This document shows positions 9,457-21,818 of a DNA stretch of 21,818 nucleotides, one piece after another; positions within the stretch are counted from its first letter, which is position 1; each line of letters opens with the position of its first letter. Position numbers and translations under genes: made by a program. The DNA comes from a virus, in the IMG/VR virus record IMGVR_UViG_3300030060_005255, positions 1 to 21,818 of that record. The stretch is one strand, 5' to 3'. A model generated the notes under the pieces. That model ran no database searches. It saw only the letters and a list, made by a program, of their open reading frames with translations, and was not told the origin of the DNA.

Positions 9457-10569
9457 GTGAGTCTTTTAGATAGATTTAAGGAAAAACAAGGCGCTCAGCC
9501 TGTTGGGCAAACCCCTAGGACAATATTTGCGGGGCAAACATTCGGAAGTAATTCTGGGATGCGGCCTAGCGGATTACTGAGTTTAGGCTTGTTGAATATG
9601 GGCTCTCCGAGATCTGGAGGGCGCAGGCAAGATCTGCCCTCTATCGGACGTTTTGAAAGACGGCCCGAAGCTCGGGCGGAAATGTTAAGTAATATGCTTT
9701 CGCAAATTGCTTCTTTTTCGCGCCCTCCTTCAGAACCCATGGGTATGCAGCAAGGCGGTCTTGTCCAGCAGGTCATCGCGGACAGACAGCGCGTTCTCGA
9801 TTCTTTTACGCCAAATCCCTACGATCAATATCAGTATCTGATGGAGAATCCAGCGACGCGGCAGGCGCCTACGGATACTGAAGTGGTTCCAGACGTAACT
9901 GGCGGAGTCATGCCCGCAGATCCCACGCCCGCAACACCGGCTGACACTTTTAACAATCTTCTGACCACCGTGCAGAAGGCGACAGGCGGATCCGACCCAG
10001 CTCCGATGAGCCCTTTGGAGGCGCGGATTGCTGAGCTAATGGAAAACAGGGGTATGACACAGCAAGAGGCTGCGGCTAATCAGGCTTTTGCTGCTCAACA
10101 GGGCGCAGATCTTAATAACGACGGGGCCATTACTAACGCTGAATATGCTTTGTTTATGCGTAGTCAAGAGCCTACGGTGTCTACGATGCCAGTCGGAGAT
10201 CCGGTGCCCTTAACGCCAAATCCAATGGGCAGTGGCTTTCTTTCAAGTGTGTTCAACAGCGAAGGTATTCAGCAGGCTATCGATGACGCTATAGCGTCGA
10301 TGGGAGATCGCTCTGGAGGGGTGGACGCGCCCGCAACTGCGCCTGCCACGCCAACAATCCCAGAAAACCTGCAAGAACGAATCGCAGCCCTGACAGGCGG
10401 TGCGGGCGGTTTTGGAGGCATGATCCCAAACATTGATGTGGATCGACTCAGAGAGCTGATGGCAGAACTTTACGGAGGACAAACGCCTCCAGTCAGAGGC
10501 CCTGAGTTCAGACCCCCACCTCCGAGGCGAATCGTAGTAGATCCAAGAATGGGCGAAGGGATGAGATAA
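9457..10569 (+). CDS. Low-complexity virion-module protein with one EF-hand loop
   Basis: A 370-residue protein I cannot assign. It starts at GTG, six bases after AAAGGAG (9444-9450). It is rich in Gly, Pro, Met and Gln and mostly looks disordered. Recognisable points are MGMQQGGLV (95-103), a helix with IAELMENRGMTQQEAAANQAF (191-211), a perfect EF-hand loop DLNNDGAITNAE (218-229) with Asp/Asn at positions 1, 3 and 5, Gly at 6 and Glu at 12, the segment LQERIAALTGGAGGFGG (305-321), and a proline-rich basic tail (350-370). The phrase RIA-x-LTG also begins the protein at 17477-19288, hinting at a shared module. It is probably a calcium-binding structural or internal protein, but this is not shown. 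Confidence 0.68.
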   Translation: MSLLDRFKEKQGAQPVGQTPRTIFAGQTFGSNSGMRPSGLLSLGLLNMGSPRSGGRRQDLPSIGRFERRPEARAEMLSNMLSQIASFSRPPSEPMGMQQGGLVQQVIADRQRVLDSFTPNPYDQYQYLMENPATRQAPTDTEVVPDVTGGVMPADPTPATPADTFNNLLTTVQKATGGSDPAPMSPLEARIAELMENRGMTQQEAAANQAFAAQQGADLNNDGAITNAEYALFMRSQEPTVSTMPVGDPVPLTPNPMGSGFLSSVFNSEGIQQAIDDAIASMGDRSGGVDAPATAPATPTIPENLQERIAALTGGAGGFGGMIPNIDVDRLRELMAELYGGQTPPVRGPEFRPPPPRRIVVDPRMGEGMR

Positions 10570-10781
10570 TGCCAAAGGCCAAGGCTAAACCTAAAGCGAA
10601 AAAAAAAGCGAAGTCTCGTGTAAACGAAGCAGGCAACTACACTAAGCCTGCACTTCGCAAAAGGATTTTTAATCGTATCAAGGCGGGCGGCAAGGGCGGA
10701 AGGCCGGGCCAATGGAGTGCTAGGAAAGCGCAAATGTTGGCGTCTGCTTACAAAAAAGCTGGGGGAGGATACAAGGACTAA
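10569..10781 (+). CDS. Small basic protein with conserved YTKPALRKRI / PGQWSARKAQ block
   Basis: Seventy residues. A Lys/Ala tail (PKAKAKPKAKKKAKSR) precedes a compact conserved block: NYTKPALRKRIFNRIKAG (23-40), GGRPGQWSARKAQMLASAYK (43-62), ending KAGGGYKD. I know this block well from marine phages and giant viruses, often beside or fused to the domain encoded by the next gene; it has no known biochemical function. It is strongly positive and may contact DNA. The start shares one base with the preceding stop. A run of nine A residues (10599-10607) encodes three lysines. Confidence 0.78.
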   Translation: MPKAKAKPKAKKKAKSRVNEAGNYTKPALRKRIFNRIKAGGKGGRPGQWSARKAQMLASAYKKAGGGYKD

Positions 10782-11035
10782 TGGCTCTCAAGAAGTCACA
10801 GAAGTCTTTGAAAAAGTGGACCAAGCAAAAGTGGCGAACAAAATCTGGCAAGCCAAGCACTCAGGGCTCGAAAGCTACTGGAGAAAGATATTTGCCTGAG
10901 AAGGCAATTAAAGCCATGTCAGATAAAGAGTACGCTGCCACCACTCGCAAAAAGCGAGCAGACACCAAAAAAGGCAAGCAGTTCTCGAAGCAGCCAAAAA
11001 AGGCGGCGAAAAAATCAAGGAGATTTCGTAAATGA
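10781..11035 (+). CDS. Small basic protein, DUF5872-like
   Basis: Eighty-four residues. The core is KSLKKWTKQKWRTKSGKPS (8-26) then ATGERYLPEKAIKAMS (32-47), which I associate with DUF5872, a domain of unknown function in phages and large eukaryotic viruses. The remaining tail is almost all Lys, Arg, Ala and Gln (KKGKQFSKQPKKAAKKSRRF), histone-tail-like in composition. The start shares one base with the previous stop and the end overlaps the next gene by four bases, so three small basic proteins are made in coupled fashion. The domain number is from memory and should be treated as likely, not certain. Confidence 0.76.
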   Translation: MALKKSQKSLKKWTKQKWRTKSGKPSTQGSKATGERYLPEKAIKAMSDKEYAATTRKKRADTKKGKQFSKQPKKAAKKSRRFRK

Positions 11036-11221: not shown

Positions 11222-11476
11222 ATGAAGATGAAAGCCAAAGGCATGAAAAAAGGCGGCATGATGAAAGCCAAGGGCATGAAAAAGGGCGGCATGATGAAGT
11301 CTAAAGGCTATGCCAAGGGCGGTGCTATGAAAGCGAAGGGCATGGCCAAAGGCGGAATGATGAAGACAAAGGGCATGGCCATGGGCGGCGCTATGAAAAC
11401 TAAAGGCGGCGCGGGCGGCGGCAAAAAGAAAATGCGTCCGCCAAACAAAAAGAAGAGTGGTTTGTTTGGCAGATAA
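11222..11476 (+). CDS. Met/Lys/Gly-rich 11-residue repeat protein
   Basis: Eighty-four residues, almost entirely Lys, Met, Gly and Ala. After MKM come five complete copies of an 11-residue unit with consensus K-[AST]-K-G-[MY]-[KA]-[KM]-G-G-[MA]-M and a sixth degraded copy, then a GGGKKKMRPPNKKK linker and a SGLFGR end. It has no Asp or Glu, so it is extremely basic. I remember similar Lys/Gly/Met strings in marine phages at this position, never characterised. Possible roles are condensing DNA inside the head, a membrane-active or metal-binding peptide; none is shown. Five bases separate a GAGG-type ribosome site from the ATG. The stop directly abuts the next ATG. Confidence 0.72.
   Translation: MKMKAKGMKKGGMMKAKGMKKGGMMKSKGYAKGGAMKAKGMAKGGMMKTKGMAMGGAMKTKGGAGGGKKKMRPPNKKKSGLFGR
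11231..11428 (+). repeat. Tandem 33-base repeat, six units, in frame
   Basis: Units begin at 11231, 11264, 11297, 11330, 11363 and 11396. Units 1 and 2 differ at only two of 33 bases, both third codon positions, indicating a recent duplication. Later units are progressively more divergent and the sixth is degenerate. All changes preserve the reading frame and the Lys/Gly/Met pattern. Confidence 0.9.
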
Positions 11477-13819: not shown

Positions 13820-14542
13820 ATGTCAAAAATCAGGGAGCTGGAGGGCAAGAAAATTGCCATCCTTGGGTTGGGCGCGTCACAGATTGATTACGTTATTGGG
13901 GTAGAAAACTCCGCAGAGTGGGACGAGGTGTGGTGCATCAACGCCGCGCTGAGCGTTTTCAAGTGTGACCGTATTTTTATGATGGACCCTGCAAGTCGAT
14001 ACCTCGACACGGAGGACGCGGGCGGTCAAACGGACGTGATGCGTCGAATGCTGCCCGAGGTACAGGCCCCGATTTACAGTTGCGAATTGGATGAACGTGT
14101 TCCTGCTCTGGTCGAGTATCCAATCGTAGAGGTGATCGAAGATCAGAAATGTGCATACTTAAATAACACGGTCGCCTACGCGATTGCGTTTGGGTTGTAT
14201 AACAAAGTAGGCCACATGGACCTTTTTGGGATGGACTTCAGTTACAAACACAACCTGCATTTCGCAGAGGCGGGCCGAGGGTGCGTTGAGTTTTGGGTAT
14301 CCCGCTGCATAAGTGAGGGTGTGTCAATTGGGGCAAGCCCCCGTTCAGCGCTTTTGGATTCTAATGTGGACCCTCACGAGCGCCTGTATGGTTATCACAG
14401 ACTCGATGACCCGTTGATGGCGGTGAACGATGTGGACGGTCAGTGGATTATTTGTAATCGCAGTAAGTTTGCTGAAGCACAGCAAAAATACAACTTACAG
14501 CGTATAGAGTTACCGAGAGCTGCGGAGCCTTACAAGGGATGA
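13820..14542 (+). CDS. Rossmann-like putative enzyme (DUF115/glycosyltransferase-like)
   Basis: A 240-residue protein that does not look structural. It begins with a strand-turn-helix KKIAILGLGASQIDYVI (10-26), typical of a nucleotide-binding Rossmann fold. DEVWCINAALSVFKCDRIFMMDP (35-57) then looks like a second strand and a DxD-like site, NNTVAYAIAFGLY (115-127) is a conserved helix, and LFGMDFSYK (135-143) is followed by EAGRGCVEFWVSRC (150-163) and a SALLDSN strand end (176-182). I recall homologues in many marine phages, always unassigned. The layout resembles DUF115/MptE-like and GT42 sialyltransferase-type proteins, so binding of a nucleotide or nucleotide-sugar is my inference. It lies amid neck genes and overlaps the next gene by four bases, so it is co-expressed with virion parts. 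Confidence 0.7.
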   Translation: MSKIRELEGKKIAILGLGASQIDYVIGVENSAEWDEVWCINAALSVFKCDRIFMMDPASRYLDTEDAGGQTDVMRRMLPEVQAPIYSCELDERVPALVEYPIVEVIEDQKCAYLNNTVAYAIAFGLYNKVGHMDLFGMDFSYKHNLHFAEAGRGCVEFWVSRCISEGVSIGASPRSALLDSNVDPHERLYGYHRLDDPLMAVNDVDGQWIICNRSKFAEAQQKYNLQRIELPRAAEPYKG

Positions 14543-15270: not shown

Positions 15271-17166
15271 ATGCCACTTACAAACCTAGAATTTAAGGCA
15301 GGGATCGATAAAGAGGCCACGGACTACTCTTCCAAGGGAGGTTGGGTGGATGGCAACTTGGTTAGATTCCGCAAAAGCCGCGTCGAAAAAATTGGCGGCT
15401 GGATTAAGCTGGGCACTAATGCTTTCCTTGGCGTTGCCCGCGCTCTGCATAGTTGGATTGAGCTGGGCGGCGTTCGGTATCTTGGACTCGGCACTACGTT
15501 CAAATACTACATCGAGTCGGGCGATCTCTATTACGATGTAACTCCGATTCGCTCCACTACTTCAGCGGGCGATGTCACTTTTGCCGCAACGAACGGCTCC
15601 TCCACAATTACGGTCACCGATACAAGTCACGGAGCAGTCAACGATGACTTTGTGACCTTCAGTGGCGCCGCGTCTCTTGGTGGTAATGTGACGGCCGCTG
15701 TGCTAAATCAAGAGTATCAAATTGTACTCGTAACAGACGGTAATACTTATACGATTACAGCAAAGGATACCTCTGGCGCAACCATCACCGCCAGCGCCTC
15801 TGACTCTGGTAACGGCGGATCGAGCACCGTAGGAACGTATCAAATTAATGTCGGGCTAGATGTGTATGTGCAGGCTACAGGATGGGGTGCGGGAACGTGG
15901 GGCGCTGGCACTTGGGGTTCAACAAGTGCAATCGCAAACACCGGCCAGCTCCGATTATGGACACATGACAACTTTGGCGAAAACCTGATTATAAACCCAC
16001 GCGGTGGCGGTATTTTTAGATGGCTAGAGAGTGGAGGCTTGTCTACTCGTGCCGTGGCGCTTTCTGGCGTCTCTGGTGCAGATCTTGTGCCGACAGTCGG
16101 CCTGCAAGTGATTACGTCAGAGATTGATCGTCATTTGATTGTATTAGGTGCCGATCCGATCTCTGGCGCTTCTCGGTCAGGATCGATTGATCCGATGCTA
16201 ATTGCGTTTTCGGATGGTGAAAACGAATTAGATTTTAATCCCACCGCCACAAATTCTGCTGGCTCTGTAAGAATTTCAGCAGGGTCTTTCATCATAGGTG
16301 CAATAAAAAGTCGGCAAGAGATTTTAATCTGGACGGACACCAGCTTGTATTCGATGCAGTTTATTGGGCCTCCATTGACTTTTGCGGTAAATCTCGTCAA
16401 TGAGGGAGCTGGATTGGTGGGACCGAAGGCTGCTGTAACAGCCCCGATTGGCGTCTTCTTCGCAAGCAAAACGGGCTTCTTTGTCTACACTGGCGCAGTA
16501 AAAAAACTGCCGTGTACCGTACAGGAATACGTTTTTAATGATCTAGATCTGGGTCAAGCGTTCAAATGCCACATGGGTCTGAACAGTGAGTATGGAGAAA
16601 TGTGGTTTTTCTATCCGAGCAAAGAGGATGGCACGCAAGAAATATCTCGCTACGTCATTTATAACTACGAGGAAAACCATTGGAGCATTGGGTCGTTAGT
16701 TCGTTACGCATGGCTAGATGCAGGAATTGAAGACGTTCCTTTTGCTACTGCGACCGATAATTCTCAGCAATTTGTTTTCCAACACGAGGTTGGTTACGAC
16801 AATCTAAATGCGGGAATGTCTAATGTGTTCATTGAATCTGGAGACATTGACATCAGCGCTGGCGAGAATTTCAGCTTTGTGAAAAAGGTGATACCGGATG
16901 TACGCTTTATTACAGACACTGGCATCAGCAATAATCCAGCGGTCAATTTTGTTTTGAAAAGCCGCGATTTTCCTAGTGACTCTTTGACAACAGAAAGCAC
17001 ATCTCAGATATTGAGTGACACACAGTTTAAAAATTTGAGAAGCAGATCACGCCAGATTGTGGTGCGATTTGAGTCAGATGATGATTTGAGCACAACTGAC
17101 GCAACAGGTTACAAATGGCGTCTCGGCACTACCCGTGTCGATTTGCAACCTAGTGGACGTCGATAA
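15271..17166 (+). CDS. Tail nozzle / hub protein (T7 gp12 or P22 gp10-like)
   Basis: A 631-residue protein, the largest in the tail block, probably the tube extending below the adaptors. The N-terminal part GIDKEATDYSSKGGWVDGNLVRFRK (11-35) is the usual opening of this family. Residues 92-190 are an extra beta domain (strands VTFAATNGSSTITVTD, DFVTFSG and YTITAKDTSG) inserted into it. A double Trp-Gly repeat WGAGTWGAGTWG (205-216) follows. Then come blade-like strands (GQLRLWTHDNFGENLIIN, GIFRWLESGG, REILIWTDTSLYSMQFIG) suggesting a beta propeller, as in gp10/gp12 nozzle proteins. The C-terminal third looks beta sandwich. It overlaps the next gene by one base. Which of the two families applies cannot be settled by eye. 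Confidence 0.78.
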   Translation: MPLTNLEFKAGIDKEATDYSSKGGWVDGNLVRFRKSRVEKIGGWIKLGTNAFLGVARALHSWIELGGVRYLGLGTTFKYYIESGDLYYDVTPIRSTTSAGDVTFAATNGSSTITVTDTSHGAVNDDFVTFSGAASLGGNVTAAVLNQEYQIVLVTDGNTYTITAKDTSGATITASASDSGNGGSSTVGTYQINVGLDVYVQATGWGAGTWGAGTWGSTSAIANTGQLRLWTHDNFGENLIINPRGGGIFRWLESGGLSTRAVALSGVSGADLVPTVGLQVITSEIDRHLIVLGADPISGASRSGSIDPMLIAFSDGENELDFNPTATNSAGSVRISAGSFIIGAIKSRQEILIWTDTSLYSMQFIGPPLTFAVNLVNEGAGLVGPKAAVTAPIGVFFASKTGFFVYTGAVKKLPCTVQEYVFNDLDLGQAFKCHMGLNSEYGEMWFFYPSKEDGTQEISRYVIYNYEENHWSIGSLVRYAWLDAGIEDVPFATATDNSQQFVFQHEVGYDNLNAGMSNVFIESGDIDISAGENFSFVKKVIPDVRFITDTGISNNPAVNFVLKSRDFPSDSLTTESTSQILSDTQFKNLRSRSRQIVVRFESDDDLSTTDATGYKWRLGTTRVDLQPSGRR

Positions 17167-17480
17167 TGAGCAGATTACTGCCGACGCGACTGCCGCTTGC
17201 AACGGGCGCGGAGGGCGTCGAAGCAGAGACATTCAACAGGCTTGTTCGCATTCTCGAAATCAACCTCGGAGCAGTGGATTTCACCATCTCTCCACACTTC
17301 AACTCGACCGAGATCTCTCAGCAGCAATTTGCCACGGGAGCCATTATCTTTAATACTACGCTTAGCATTCATCAGGCGTTCGACGGCACTCAGTTTCGAA
17401 ACCTGTATGAGCATCAAAGCTACCCTAGCGGAGTCGGAGTGACGTCCGCAGTGGGGTCTGTAACGGTGAGCACGCCATGA
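17166..17480 (+). CDS. Small protein downstream of the nozzle, function unknown
   Basis: One hundred and four residues. The first half has FNRLVRILEINLGAVDFT (23-40), a helix and strand; the second half is beta-like with GAIIFNTTLSIHQAFDGTQFRNLYEH (58-83) and a SAVGSVTVST end. It starts in the stop of the nozzle gene and its stop lies inside the next start (ATGA), so it is tightly coupled to both. I recall comparable short proteins at this spot in marine phages without a function. A small tail-tip or linker protein is possible. Confidence 0.66.
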   Translation: MSRLLPTRLPLATGAEGVEAETFNRLVRILEINLGAVDFTISPHFNSTEISQQQFATGAIIFNTTLSIHQAFDGTQFRNLYEHQSYPSGVGVTSAVGSVTVSTP

Positions 17481-19288
17481 ATACATTTTTACAACAGAGA
17501 ATTGCTTCCCTCACGGGGATGCCTATGGGAATGGCCGAAGGCGGTCCAGTAGATGCTGACCTACTCGACACGTCGGATCCCGAGGTGCAGCAGGGATTAG
17601 CAGAAAGCGCGATGATGCCACAGGATCCTAACGAGGCTCTGCGTCAGACTATTGAGGGTCTGATGGGCGCGGCCCAAATGGCGGAAGATCCGACAGACCG
17701 ACGAGCTGCGGAGGGCTTGGCCGAAGCTGCAATGGTCGGTTCTCAAGCGCCAATGGCTGACATGGCTATCCAATTGGCTCAAGCGGGCAGGGGCCCAGAT
17801 ACTCAGCTTGCGCACGTCGCGCCCGGTGAGGTCATCTTGCCTCCCCAAGTCATGGCGGATGCTGAGTTCGAAAAGATTGTTGGCGACCGCTTTGCTGAGC
17901 TGGACATGAATCCAGAGGAGTATGTGGTGGGCGCAGGCATTGCCTCGCTTAATCCGGTCACTGGTCTTGAAGAGTTTGGTTTTCTGAAAAAGGCTTTTAA
18001 AAGCGTAAAAAAAGTAGTTAAGAAAGTAGTCAAGCCGGTGGCGCAAGTCGCGCAATTTATACCCGGCCCTTGGCAACTTCCTGCCGCCTACGTCTCCAAG
18101 GGTTTTAATGTCTACGATGCATTTAAATCTGGCAATCCTCTCGGCGGCATAGCGGCGCTTGGGATGCCAATGCCCGGCGGTAGCGGTGGTGGCTTTCAAA
18201 TACCGGGTTTCGGTGGCGGCACCTTCTCCTTTCCTTCTGGCGGGGCTCCTAATATGAGTGGCGGAATTTCTGATCTTTTGAGTGGTGCTTATGATTATGT
18301 GTTTGATGCGGGTGATGGCAAAGGTCTGCTGACCAACTTGGGACAAACCTTTGGTATCGGAGGCGGTAGTAAGACCGCTGGCGATATTTTAGTTGAGGCC
18401 GTAAAAAACAATCCAGAAATTCAAAAATCAATTTTAGAAGGTGCGCAAGCAGGGCTTACCACAGAAGAAATTTTATCCAAATTGCAACAATCTGGTGTTA
18501 TCAGCCCCTACGCTGACAAAGGATTTTTTGGCTCTATCGGAGAGTTTGTTTTTGCGGGTGACGATGACAAGAATGCTTTGCAAAACCTCCTCAGCGGCTA
18601 CAATCAATATCAGCAAATGACGCAGGGCGGTCAGCAGGGACAGCAATTCATGCCACAGCAGGGCGGTGGCGGCTCTAATCTGATGTCGATGCTGGGTCTT
18701 GGCGGTCAAGGCGGCATGGGGATTGGGGGACTGCTGGGCACAGCGGGCTTGGCTGGCTTGGTCGGCAAGCTGGCGTATGACGAAGCCAAGGATCGCAAAG
18801 GCGTACCTCTGACTCCGCTGACGCAGATGAACGCAATGGGTCGGTACAACATAGAGCAGGAGATTGCTCGCCGCACTGGCCAGCCTAGCCCGAATCCAGT
18901 TGAGTTTGGCTTGTTGCCCGCTGGCACTATCCCATCGCTGTCAGGAGGCGCCCCTGCGCCCATGCAGGCGAGATATGGCGGGCCAGTCATGGCCTTTGCG
19001 GAAGGTGGAGACGTAGATCAAGAGGTCTTCGTCCGCATGACCGGCGACATAGACGGCAAGGGCACGGAAATCAGCGATGACATTCCAGCCATGTTGTCAG
19101 ACGGTGAGTTTGTGATGACGGGCCGAGCTGTTCGAGGCGCGGGCGCCTTTGATATGAACAACGACAACGGCATTATCACGCTCAAGCCAGCGAATGGAGA
19201 ATCCAGAGAGAAAGGCATCGACCTGATGTACAAGATGATGGACCTTTTCTCAGAGTTCGCGACTGCACCGCAGGCGAAGGGGGCATAA
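17477..19288 (+). CDS. Putative internal virion (ejection) protein with cationic membrane-like segment
   Basis: A 603-residue Gly/Gln/Ala-rich protein. The order is: MGMAEGGPVD near the N-terminus (17-26); an Ala-rich helical region (35-105); HVAPGEVILPPQVMADAEF (113-131); a strikingly cationic amphipathic stretch KKAFKSVKKVVKKVVK (171-186) running into the hydrophobic FIPGPWQLPAAYV (194-206); Gly-rich repeats (230-262); a helical middle (300-345); a Gln/Gly linker; a hydrophobic Gly/Leu/Ala segment (400-433); and a C-terminal domain YGGPVMAFAEGGDVDQE (500-516) with DIPAMLSDGEFVMTGRAVRGAGAF (535-558). I recall that last block from many phage structural proteins. Cationic plus hydrophobic segments fit a protein ejected with the DNA that enters the cell envelope, as P22 gp7, gp16 and gp20 do. 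This role is inferred. Confidence 0.7.
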   Translation: MNTFLQQRIASLTGMPMGMAEGGPVDADLLDTSDPEVQQGLAESAMMPQDPNEALRQTIEGLMGAAQMAEDPTDRRAAEGLAEAAMVGSQAPMADMAIQLAQAGRGPDTQLAHVAPGEVILPPQVMADAEFEKIVGDRFAELDMNPEEYVVGAGIASLNPVTGLEEFGFLKKAFKSVKKVVKKVVKPVAQVAQFIPGPWQLPAAYVSKGFNVYDAFKSGNPLGGIAALGMPMPGGSGGGFQIPGFGGGTFSFPSGGAPNMSGGISDLLSGAYDYVFDAGDGKGLLTNLGQTFGIGGGSKTAGDILVEAVKNNPEIQKSILEGAQAGLTTEEILSKLQQSGVISPYADKGFFGSIGEFVFAGDDDKNALQNLLSGYNQYQQMTQGGQQGQQFMPQQGGGGSNLMSMLGLGGQGGMGIGGLLGTAGLAGLVGKLAYDEAKDRKGVPLTPLTQMNAMGRYNIEQEIARRTGQPSPNPVEFGLLPAGTIPSLSGGAPAPMQARYGGPVMAFAEGGDVDQEVFVRMTGDIDGKGTEISDDIPAMLSDGEFVMTGRAVRGAGAFDMNNDNGIITLKPANGESREKGIDLMYKMMDLFSEFATAPQAKGA

Positions 19289-19289
19289 C

Positions 19290-21818
19290 ATGAGTCAGCA
19301 ACCCGGAACCCCCTACTCTTTCCCCGATGGCACACCCGAGATTCTAGATCTTCCCTACGGCCCCGCCATGGGTCAGTACTTTGACGCAGAAGGCAGACCG
19401 GGAAGTTATGTTGATCTTGGTTACGGTTCTCAAAGGACGGGTTTCCAGCCTCAAGGGACCGGCGGTGGTCAAGGGTCGCAACTTCCTGATTGGGTAGTAC
19501 CCCCACCGCCCGGCTCCATGAACACGATGATGGTAAGCTCCGTGACAAATCCGTACACGGGCGAAACGGTTACGGTGCCTTCTGGCGGTTATTCTGTGAA
19601 TGATGAAGCCGCAAGAGCGGCGGCAGAGAATCCACAGCCAGCTCAACCGCCCGCTACTCAAGATCAAGTGGCGCCCCCGCAGGTTAGCAACGAGGCGCCT
19701 TTTGTCAGCGGCATAGCACGCCGCGATGTCTCGATGGACCCCATCATTCAGCAGTTGCTGTTTGGGGATGCCACGCAGACTGGCTTCTTGCCCGGCGCTT
19801 TTCGAGCAGCAGAGCGCACGTTCTTTGACGATCAGGGTAGGCCAATCGTCATACCGCAGGCCATTGCTGGACTCACTGCCGACCAACAGCTCGCCGCCGA
19901 TATTGCGCGGTCTCAGGTCGGTCAACAGCTTCCATTTCTGAGTGCGGCAGAGCAGGCGTACGGACGCGGACTGGCGGCTCTTACCAGCGGACTTGACGAG
20001 CAGAGAGATTTCGCTCGCGGCGCCTTGACGGATTATTCCAGTGAGCTGCAGGAAGCATTGGGTTTAGGACGCAGAGCTGCTGGCAGATTTGGCGAAGATC
20101 TGGGGCAAATTGAAGGTCTGGCAGAACAGGCAGAAAGAGATCTTGGTCGTAGGGTTGAAGATGCCACTGGCACCTTGCGCGGCGGTGTTTCTACGCTGGA
20201 GCAACAGCTCGATAGGGCTTTGGGTAGAGAGCAGCTCGCAATTGATGACTTCAGCGGTGATCTTGGTGGCTCTCTCGCAGAGCGAAGGCGTGCTATTTCT
20301 GGATTACAGCCGGGCCTTGGGCGGTCTGAGCAGGCGCTTCGATCTGCAATCGGTGGGCTTGATCGCCGCTTAGGAGCGTCAGAACTCGGCTCAGCCAGAG
20401 GGGTCAGTGATCTCGGATCTAGGCTGAGTGAGTCGGAGGCCAGACTGAGAGCGACCACGGGTGGCTTTGATCCAAGGATGACAGGAGAGTTTTACGATCC
20501 CTTCGAGCAGGCGGTGGTGCAGCAAACCATCGAAGATGTTCTGGAGGGTGCTGATCAAGCGGACATCGCACAGCGGGCGCGAGACATCCAGACAGGTGGT
20601 GAGTCTGCATTTGGCTCCAGAGCCAGACTGACGGCCGAGGAGCGAAGAGAAGCGCTGGGTCGCGGTCTGGCAGACAGAATATCTGCAATTCGCTCTGGAG
20701 GCTTCCAGCGGGCGCAGCAGACGGCGCTTGGTGAGTTTGCTCGTCAACAGGCCGCGCAAAGACAGGCCGCAACAGGATTGGCGTCTTTGGCTGGTCAACG
20801 CTTTGGCGCAGGGGAGCAACTGGCTACGAGACTCGGCACAGGCGCTCAGCAAAGATTTGGTGCAGGCAGCAGGTTGGCGGATCAAATTGGACAGCGTGCT
20901 CAACTTGAAAGCGGTGCAGGTGAGCGTATGGCGGGCGCATTGAGCGACGCCGCACAACAAAGGCTTGCCGCGCAACAACGATTCAGTAGCCAGATTGCGG
21001 GCTTGGCTGGTCAAAGATTTGGCGCCGCCAAAGATTTGACAGGTCAGCAGATGTCTGCGGCTTCGGCACAACAGGCTGCATCACAGGCACGACAGGCCAC
21101 CCTCGGTCAAACAGCCGCACAGAGACTCGCCTCTCAGCAACAACTGGCTCAACAGCAGAGTAATCTTGCCAATCAACGCATGGCTGCACAGCAGAATTAT
21201 TCAAATATGTTAGGTCAACAAGCACAGTTGCGGCAGGGCGCTCAAACTCAGTTTGGTCAGCAGATGACGGGGTTAGGTCAGAACGTAGCGGCGGCAGGTG
21301 CTCAGGACGTGGCAAGCTTGCAGGGTATTGGCGGACAACAGCAGGCTCTAAATCAGGCTCAGCTCGATGCGCAGAGGAATGCTTTGTTGCAGGCTCAGCA
21401 GGCACCGATGCAACAATATCAAAGCCTATTGCCTTTCGTTCAGCTTGCCGGACAGCAAACTGGTCCAAGCCAGATAGGTACAGAGTTCGCCCCTATGCCG
21501 AGCGCGTTGCAGGCAGGCTTGGGTGCTGGTCTGGCAACACTCGGAGCCTTGGGCAACTTCTTTGGCCAAGGACAACAGGCGGCTATGCAGCAGCAAGCGC
21601 TGGATCAGGGCCAGCAGGCGCTGAACATACAAGCTCAGCAAGCTGGGGTAACCCCTCCGCCACCCGCAAGTAATCAAATAGATTCTCTGACACAATTAGC
21701 ACAAGCAGGATTCCAGCTATTCCCACCACAAGGGCAACAGCAGGAGATCCCTAATTTTGCACCGTATCTGCCACAACTTCCCGAGAACACTCCAAACTTC
21801 GCGCCTTACTTGCCCGGT
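19290..21818 (+). CDS. Large Ala/Gln-rich internal virion (ejection) protein candidate, 18-residue repeats, 3' end cut off
   Basis: An open frame from ATG 19290 to the window edge, 843 codons without a stop. After a Pro/Gly/Gln-rich N-terminus (1-145) and a segment with FDDQGRPIVIPQAIAGL (178-194), residues 224-385 form nine 18-residue helical repeats. A conserved non-repetitive core follows (about 393-471, with GEFYDPFEQAVVQQTIEDVL, then FGSRARLTAEERREALGRGL), then twelve more 18-residue Ala/Gln repeats (485-700). A Gly/Leu/Ala-rich hydrophobic segment (ALQAGLGAGLATLGALGNFF, 738-757) and a Pro/Gln tail with NFAPYLP twice end the visible part. I recall the core from marine phage structural proteins. 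Long helical Ala/Gln build and position fit an ejected conduit protein in the style of P22 gp20 or T7 gp15/gp16; a fibre is the alternative. The start is one base after the previous stop. Confidence 0.8.
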   Translation, partial: MSQQPGTPYSFPDGTPEILDLPYGPAMGQYFDAEGRPGSYVDLGYGSQRTGFQPQGTGGGQGSQLPDWVVPPPPGSMNTMMVSSVTNPYTGETVTVPSGGYSVNDEAARAAAENPQPAQPPATQDQVAPPQVSNEAPFVSGIARRDVSMDPIIQQLLFGDATQTGFLPGAFRAAERTFFDDQGRPIVIPQAIAGLTADQQLAADIARSQVGQQLPFLSAAEQAYGRGLAALTSGLDEQRDFARGALTDYSSELQEALGLGRRAAGRFGEDLGQIEGLAEQAERDLGRRVEDATGTLRGGVSTLEQQLDRALGREQLAIDDFSGDLGGSLAERRRAISGLQPGLGRSEQALRSAIGGLDRRLGASELGSARGVSDLGSRLSESEARLRATTGGFDPRMTGEFYDPFEQAVVQQTIEDVLEGADQADIAQRARDIQTGGESAFGSRARLTAEERREALGRGLADRISAIRSGGFQRAQQTALGEFARQQAAQRQAATGLASLAGQRFGAGEQLATRLGTGAQQRFGAGSRLADQIGQRAQLESGAGERMAGALSDAAQQRLAAQQRFSSQIAGLAGQRFGAAKDLTGQQMSAASAQQAASQARQATLGQTAAQRLASQQQLAQQQSNLANQRMAAQQNYSNMLGQQAQLRQGAQTQFGQQMTGLGQNVAAAGAQDVASLQGIGGQQQALNQAQLDAQRNALLQAQQAPMQQYQSLLPFVQLAGQQTGPSQIGTEFAPMPSALQAGLGAGLATLGALGNFFGQGQQAAMQQQALDQGQQALNIQAQQAGVTPPPPASNQIDSLTQLAQAGFQLFPPQGQQQEIPNFAPYLPQLPENTPNFAPYLPG
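19959..20444 (+). repeat. Protein-level 18-residue repeat array 1 (nine units, 54 bases each)
   Basis: Units start at residues 224, 242, 260, 278, 296, 314, 332, 350 and 368 of the last gene. In every unit position 4 is Gly or Ala, position 8 is Leu, Phe or Tyr, and position 12 is Leu or Val. Position 5 is Leu, Ile, Val or Ala in eight of nine, and position 2 is often Arg. DNA identity between units is low, so the repeat is old. Confidence 0.75.
20742..21389 (+). repeat. Protein-level 18-residue repeat array 2 (twelve units, 54 bases each)
   Basis: Units start at residues 485 to 683 in steps of 18. Position 5 is Ala in ten of twelve units, position 17 is Ala in nine and Gly in two, position 13 is mostly Leu, Ile or Met, and several units open with QR and a hydrophobic residue. 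The best-preserved opening is QRFGA at residues 503, 521 and 575 (20796, 20850, 21012). DNA between the 20787 and 21003 copies is still visibly similar over about 24 bases. Confidence 0.75.
21750..21815 (+). repeat. Duplicated octapeptide PNFAPYLP encoded by different codons
   Basis: The octapeptide occurs at 21750-21773 and again at 21792-21815, separated by QLPENT. All eight codons differ between the copies while every amino acid is identical. The array may continue beyond the window edge. Confidence 0.85.

Follow-up and report, generated by a model that had tools for sequence, protein, structure and literature searches.

Mirrored changes in two 18-residue repeat arrays point to a long helical hairpin in a phage virion-cluster protein

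Chemoreceptors (MCPs) fall into classes that are named by the number of their heptads; their cytoplasmic hairpin keeps a conserved tip, while its length varies through symmetric, paired gains and losses in the two arms (PMC5907407, which cites Alexander and Zhulin). Among phage proteins, close described systems include the long helical ejection proteins of the periplasmic-tunnel type. To these belong N4 gp51, a helical hairpin next to the portal (PMC12633501), DEV gp72, seen as a channel assembly in its recombinant, post-ejection form (PMC10925440), and the T7 gp15-type ejection proteins (PMC8954989). A third comparison is offered by tape measure proteins of long-tailed phages, whose repeat number varies in units of 11 residues (PMC3271669). 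Little is known about the internal virion proteins of short-tailed phages. We describe here a phage protein family in which the paired-indel principle of the chemoreceptors recurs with a different unit and, probably, in a different role.

The window analyzed here is the whole of the viral IMG/VR record IMGVR_UViG_3300030060_005255 (21,818 bases). It carries genes for a terminase, an SU10-type portal, a capsid protein and a virion structural protein of family phrog_3287. Because the last of these is common to short-tailed phages, the gene content indicates that the window most likely belongs to a short-tailed marine phage. The protein of interest, which we refer to as the hairpin protein, is encoded by the last open reading frame and reaches the window's end after 843 residues; its complete counterpart in a relative 97% identical to the window (L001) has 873 residues. 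Its parts and its two relevant neighbors are:

15271 to 17166, + strand: virion structural protein, PHROG match to phrog_3287; several relatives are annotated as stabilization protein
17477 to 19288, + strand: neighbor gene, 603 amino acids; approximately residues 500–560 match several tape-measure profiles
19290 to 21818, + strand: gene of the hairpin protein
19698 to 19877, + strand: conserved N-side base, residues 137–196, GFLPGAFRAAERTFFDDQGRPIVIPQ, with invariant alignment columns
19878 to 20471, + strand: arm 1 (array 1), residues 197–395, 18-residue period, one hydrophobic stripe
20472 to 20741, + strand: conserved, non-repetitive core, residues 395–484, with VVQQTIED and SAFGSRARL; proposed hairpin tip
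20742 to 21389, + strand: arm 2 (array 2), residues 485–700, twelve 18-residue Ala/Gln/Gly units, one hydrophobic stripe
21390 to 21569, + strand: conserved C-side base, QAQQAPMQQYQSLLPF onward, with invariant alignment columns; proposed to adjoin the N-side base in the fold

The core contains many invariant columns in the family alignment, and the spacing from VVQQTIED to SAFGSRARL is constant among the relatives wherever both motifs were found. Between the window and L001, the core shows no amino-acid change over 89 codons, arm 2 shows 23 synonymous and 2 non-synonymous codon changes, and arm 1 shows 35 and 6, respectively. The gene is under purifying selection.

The first-pass annotation of this DNA had called positions 20742 to 21389 an array of 18-residue units, and both the call and the coordinates proved right. 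Upon arranging the encoded residues in rows of 18 from residue 485, we found Ala in column 5 of ten of the twelve rows and Ala or Gly in column 17 of eleven, exactly as it had counted. Column 13, given there as mostly Leu, Ile or Met, holds Leu, Ile, Met or Val in nine of twelve rows. The suggested comparison with composition-matched shuffles confirmed periodicity beyond composition: none of 2000 shuffles matched the signal at lag 18, ten Ala in any single column occurred in 0 of 5000, and eleven Ala/Gly in any single column occurred in 0.08% of 5000. In array 2, BLOSUM62 self-similarity had its maxima at lags 18, 36 and 54 (z of 7.0, 6.2 and 5.7), and array 1 (residues 197–395) was similarly high there (6.4, 6.8 and 6.3). 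By the same test, residues 1–196, the core (395–484) and residues 701–843 carry no 18-residue signal, bearing out the claim that the core between the arrays is non-repetitive. Tandem Repeats Finder detected no DNA array in the gene; the repeat therefore exists at the level of the protein, not of the DNA. Since Ala and Gln make up 99 of the 216 residues of array 2, one could imagine a low-complexity composition that is periodic in appearance only. The shuffles, the signals at lags 36 and 54 and the length data described below contradict this idea, to which we give virtually no weight.

We next averaged the arms over 64 distinct relatives, from which L076 was excluded for its differing phase. 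At 100 degrees per residue, each arm has a hydrophobic moment of 0.53, that is a single stripe. One column of arm 2 is 97% Ala/Gly/Ser, and neither Trp nor Cys occurs among the 31,587 residues. As the first-pass annotation had stated, the arrays differ in composition: charged residues amount to 29% in arm 1 vs 9% in arm 2 (relatives' mean). Because 18 residues correspond to five turns at 3.6 residues per turn, the hydrophobic stripe runs along each arm without winding round the helix.

To compare unit numbers, we collected relatives from IMG/VR, first with a protein query and then with an alignment query; a genome collection of 84,980 species contained four matching loci. Two distances were taken in each protein, one separating a conserved N-side motif and the core (N-side distance), the other separating the core and a conserved C-side motif (C-side distance). 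The first set comprised 96 proteins including the window's, 77 of which had all three landmarks (of the other 19, 18 are cut by a contig end and one, L096, is a distant short relative). Each of the two distances spans more than 450 residues across the relatives, corresponding to arms of about 5 to 31 units, and the N-side distance exceeds the C-side distance by 10, 11 or 12 residues in all 77. Divided by 18, the C-side distances in this set leave a remainder of 13. The exception is L076, in which each arm is longer by 7 residues (two helical turns); the same +7 phase, again in both arms, is found in 29 newly fetched loci.

A held-out test started from a different lead sequence. Among the best 80 of the 561 relatives that this second search returned, 31 had been seen before, all 42 new measurable loci obey the 10–12 rule, and 7 were unmeasured. 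Of these seven, L290 and L293 give a difference of 10 with a looser motif; L248, L250 and L251 give 11, 12 and 12 when the N landmark is located by eye; in L252 the C motif is missing, and L259 is a truncated protein. Combining both sets, all 119 loci that could be fully measured, representing 104 distinct proteins, fall within 10–12, a range that is reached in 9.7% of cases when arms are swapped between these proteins. A tree built from the conserved parts requires 32 or more changes of arm length but 6 of the difference, each amounting to one or two residues, and none of the 119 loci shows a one-armed change of a whole unit. The first-pass annotation proposed repeat expansion to either side of the conserved core; this is supported, and unit numbers do vary between relatives. 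The pattern poses an evolutionary question: two separate arrays in one gene have kept equal length through at least 32 changes. We considered whether another gene sets arm length and rejected this idea, because the lengths of three neighbor proteins (Spearman –0.11, –0.30 and –0.07) and of the protein's own C-terminal tail do not correlate with it.

The positions of the length changes are as closely matched as their sizes. We aligned arms 1 and arms 2 separately for all pairs among 65 distinct proteins and obtained 190 pairs of unequal length with at least 70% identity in both arms. Where each arm holds a single gap, the depth of the gap from the core agrees within 18 residues in 111 of 111 pairs (Pearson 0.99); these pairs often share events and do not represent 111 independent changes. 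For example, a 36-residue gap between L016 and L029 lies at depths 95–131 and 92–128 in the two arms, and 54-residue gaps lie at 145–199 and 146–200 between L038 and L039 and at 134–188 and 126–180 between L052 and L066. Agreement remains high when the identity threshold is lowered to 60% (265 of 273) or 50% (294 of 320). Overall, gap overlap is 0.71 vs 0.16 under random placing, and 189 of the 190 pairs exceed their own null. In pairs with several gaps, the gap number is equal on the two sides in 17 of 66, and in 16 of those 17 the gaps match in size and depth; the unequal numbers in the other 49 may reflect alignment ambiguity within repeats or may be real. Between L059 and L069, each arm has three gaps, of 72, 108 and 36 residues, and every gap in arm 1 has its counterpart at a corresponding depth in arm 2. 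Within L069, units 11–12 of arm 2 recur as units 17–18 (18/18 and 17/18 identical), and units 12–13 and 18–19 of arm 1 look similar by eye, below the 15/18 threshold. From these sequences, a six-unit duplication on both sides is likely.

Matched arm lengths together with indels at equal depth from the core suggest that array 1 pairs with array 2 in one structure. This bears on the suggestion of the first-pass annotation that the arrays are perhaps two helical tubes, each in surroundings of its own. Their unlike content of charged residues would suit such an arrangement, but independent tubes would be expected to show neither the 119 matched lengths nor the mirrored gaps, which makes this reading very improbable. 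A tape-measure or scaffold-like protein, with the arrays end to end and each measuring half of a symmetric structure, would explain the 18-residue steps, which resemble the gain and loss of tape-measure units, and would fit the tape-measure-like C-terminal stretch of the adjacent 603-amino-acid protein. End-to-end arrays, however, require no changes at mirror positions, and the lengths of the three neighbor proteins do not track arm length. Moreover, the tape-measure units in the published account (PMC3271669) have 11 residues and belong to long-tailed phages, whereas here two mirrored arrays occur among short-tail genes. We regard this explanation as improbable.

Rather, an antiparallel helical hairpin would demand just this combination of matching arms, mirrored gaps and a kept helical phase, and we conclude that arrays 1 and 2 very probably form a single such hairpin with the core at its tip. 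In this fold, array 1 would extend from the conserved base, the core would turn at the tip, and array 2 would return alongside array 1 to the second base block, so that unit k of arm 1 would adjoin unit k of arm 2. Each 18-residue unit would make five turns of an untwisted 3.6-residue helix and present the same face as the one before. With the same face in every unit and k beside k, units would be gained or lost in pairs only. A helix rises by 0.15 nm per residue. The arms would thus act as a spacer that sets how far the tip stands from the base, in steps of ~2.7 nm (18 × 0.15 nm), giving calculated lengths of ~13 nm for L029 (5 units), ~32 nm for the window (12 units) and ~84 nm for L069 (31 units). 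Several copies of the protein would form a conduit or spoke in DNA delivery. Taken as one explanation, a long antiparallel α-helical hairpin that serves as a base-to-tip spacer in an ejection protein building such a conduit or spoke appears probable. More speculatively, the hairpin could be an evolvable ruler with a conserved tip and 2.7-nm steps, in which 5 to 31 unit pairs have been duplicated or lost together at equal depth, either by a coupled process or under very strong selection.

The likeness to the chemoreceptor hairpin is one of principle. Paired symmetric indels are found in the window clade, with equal lengths at mirror positions. By contrast, the chemoreceptor unit is a 7-residue heptad of a supercoil, while the unit here comprises 18 residues at 3.6 per turn and is untwisted; a heptad (3.5) periodicity is found neither in the window clade (period 18) nor in arm 2 of the sister clade described below, which prefers 3.6. 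Chemoreceptors are membrane receptors, whereas the hairpin protein is encoded in a phage virion gene cluster, and no MCP signaling-domain Pfam family came up for the window protein (E 0.01) or in the family lists of 16 members (E 0.1). In searches of an open-access library, we found no description of paired repeats of this kind in a phage protein.

AlphaFold2 predicted helices at low confidence for both the window protein (58-row alignment, mean pLDDT 61, pTM 0.23) and the short relative L028 (36 rows, mean pLDDT 52, pTM 0.20), and neither monomer model yielded a trusted hairpin. The first-pass annotation had weighed its helical arrays against a non-helical fiber shaft; these low-confidence predictions favor helices over a β fiber shaft. 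Foldseek returned nothing below E 0.001 against the PDB and one match against BFVD (A0A516MFM1, 703 amino acids, E 1.9e-5).

The coupling of the arms extends to a sister clade. Cultured phages related through the structural gene (DSL-LC04, HTVC023P, HTVC027P, MinM2, DB2 and CRP-901) encode nearby a protein of 280–460 residues with a related core, and all six of these syntenic proteins match the phrog_4287 'DNA ejection protein' profile (1.4e-4 to 7.4e-20). The phrog_4287 proteins of DSL-LC04, HTVC023P and HTVC027P share with the window clade the gene position and the coupled arms, and have a related core (GAFGGSR vs SAFGSR) and similar base blocks. Unlike the window clade, which adds pairs of 18-residue units, the sister clade frequently has short arms, whose length varies in steps of differing size, each made up of whole turns. 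Across 117 sister-clade loci, the core was located in 116 and all three profile landmarks in 108; the 54 distinct length pairs give r = 0.97 between arm 1 and arm 2, with a slope of 1.04. An earlier measurement with plain motifs (70 of 117 loci, r 0.81) was dropped for false C-side landmarks in favor of the profile landmarks. Exceptions to the lock are L127, L136/L137, L145, L146, L157, L184, L191 and L201. In L127, L136 and L137, arm 1 holds AQMGPAQQVS-type repeats of non-helical appearance, so the hairpin may not include the additional length. The arm 2 lengths fit best to a period of 3.6 (p about 0.0002 vs ±3 jitter), with 3.5 not favored; whole-turn spacing in arm 1 is weak. Since the sister-clade arms are coupled and arm 2 changes by whole turns, the coupling rule seems, from these sequences, to predate the 18-residue unit.

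The probable role of the hairpin protein is read from its surroundings and from analogy. Annotated or matched neighbors place its gene among internal virion genes, near one whose DSL-LC04 counterpart is annotated as a DNA transfer protein. In the window clade, phrog_4287 matches 3 of 16 members of the family alignment (best 4.9e-5) as well as L076 (1.5e-6) and L029 (7e-5); here and in the cultured phages, Q/A-rich composition may raise the scores. The window protein matches no PHROG family at E 0.01, hence neither phrog_4287 nor a tape-measure profile. Together with the likeness to N4 gp51, DEV gp72 and T7 gp15, gene order and phrog_4287 lead us to favor, by a modest degree, an internal virion DNA-ejection protein. 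No sequence match to the three known proteins was found, and the available parts of their descriptions mention no paired repeat units; the hairpin protein, for its part, is known from sequence and monomer models.

A straight 84-nm hairpin as in L069 would be too long for an ordinary capsid of about 55–60 nm. For the longest members, we therefore doubt that the protein lies inside as a straight rod; it could be bent or could sit outside the virion. In the latter case, the same hairpin could project as a helical whisker or tail appendage and make contact through its tip, since the longest arms suit an outside fiber better than the capsid interior. A tblastn search with L076 at E 10 had a single phage as its result, Salinivibrio phage CW02 (two records, E about 1), where the match is annotated 'putative tail fiber'. 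Contact tips usually vary, however, and here the tip is the most conserved part of the protein; gene order and the phrog_4287 matches also indicate ejection proteins. An external appendage is therefore unlikely, and the internal ejection protein remains our preferred reading. The natural series of hairpin lengths offers a way to measure how reach affects DNA delivery. A sequence record alone has in this case strongly suggested an architecture, with arms in register and tip and base fixed, along with predictions of which changes are permitted.

Other searches returned little. Neither the window protein nor L029 had a tblastn match in 50,697 phage records, and seven proteins had none in NCBIfam. 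The family profile searched against PDB sequences gave CHMP2A (ESCRT-III, 7zcg) as its sole, weak match, to arm 1 at E 4.5e-4, and revealed no sequence relation to the solved periplasmic-tunnel members. CHMP2A is a helical hairpin membrane protein; the match is probably an effect of composition.

Several further features of these genomes deserve mention. The product of 17477 to 19288 has its tape-measure-like stretch despite the short-tailed look of the phage, as does its DSL-LC04 counterpart. The 'tail tape measure protein' of DSL-LC04 (L097, 15716 to 17995) contains near-identical tandem repeats of the YAGMDLSSAQGTLGGPS type. Short PTGAQ/PTGTQ repeats follow the C-side base in L018 and L023, and in L018 PVAQQ repeats precede the N-side base. 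In the window, positions 13820 to 14542 encode a 240-amino-acid protein that is kept in the structural module of many relatives and has no Pfam or PHROG match. Finally, positions 11222 to 11476 encode an 84-amino-acid protein with a Lys/Gly/Met-rich 11-residue repeat (a 33-base DNA repeat, 4.6 copies), beside which lie the small Lys-rich open reading frames 10569 to 10781 and 10781 to 11035.
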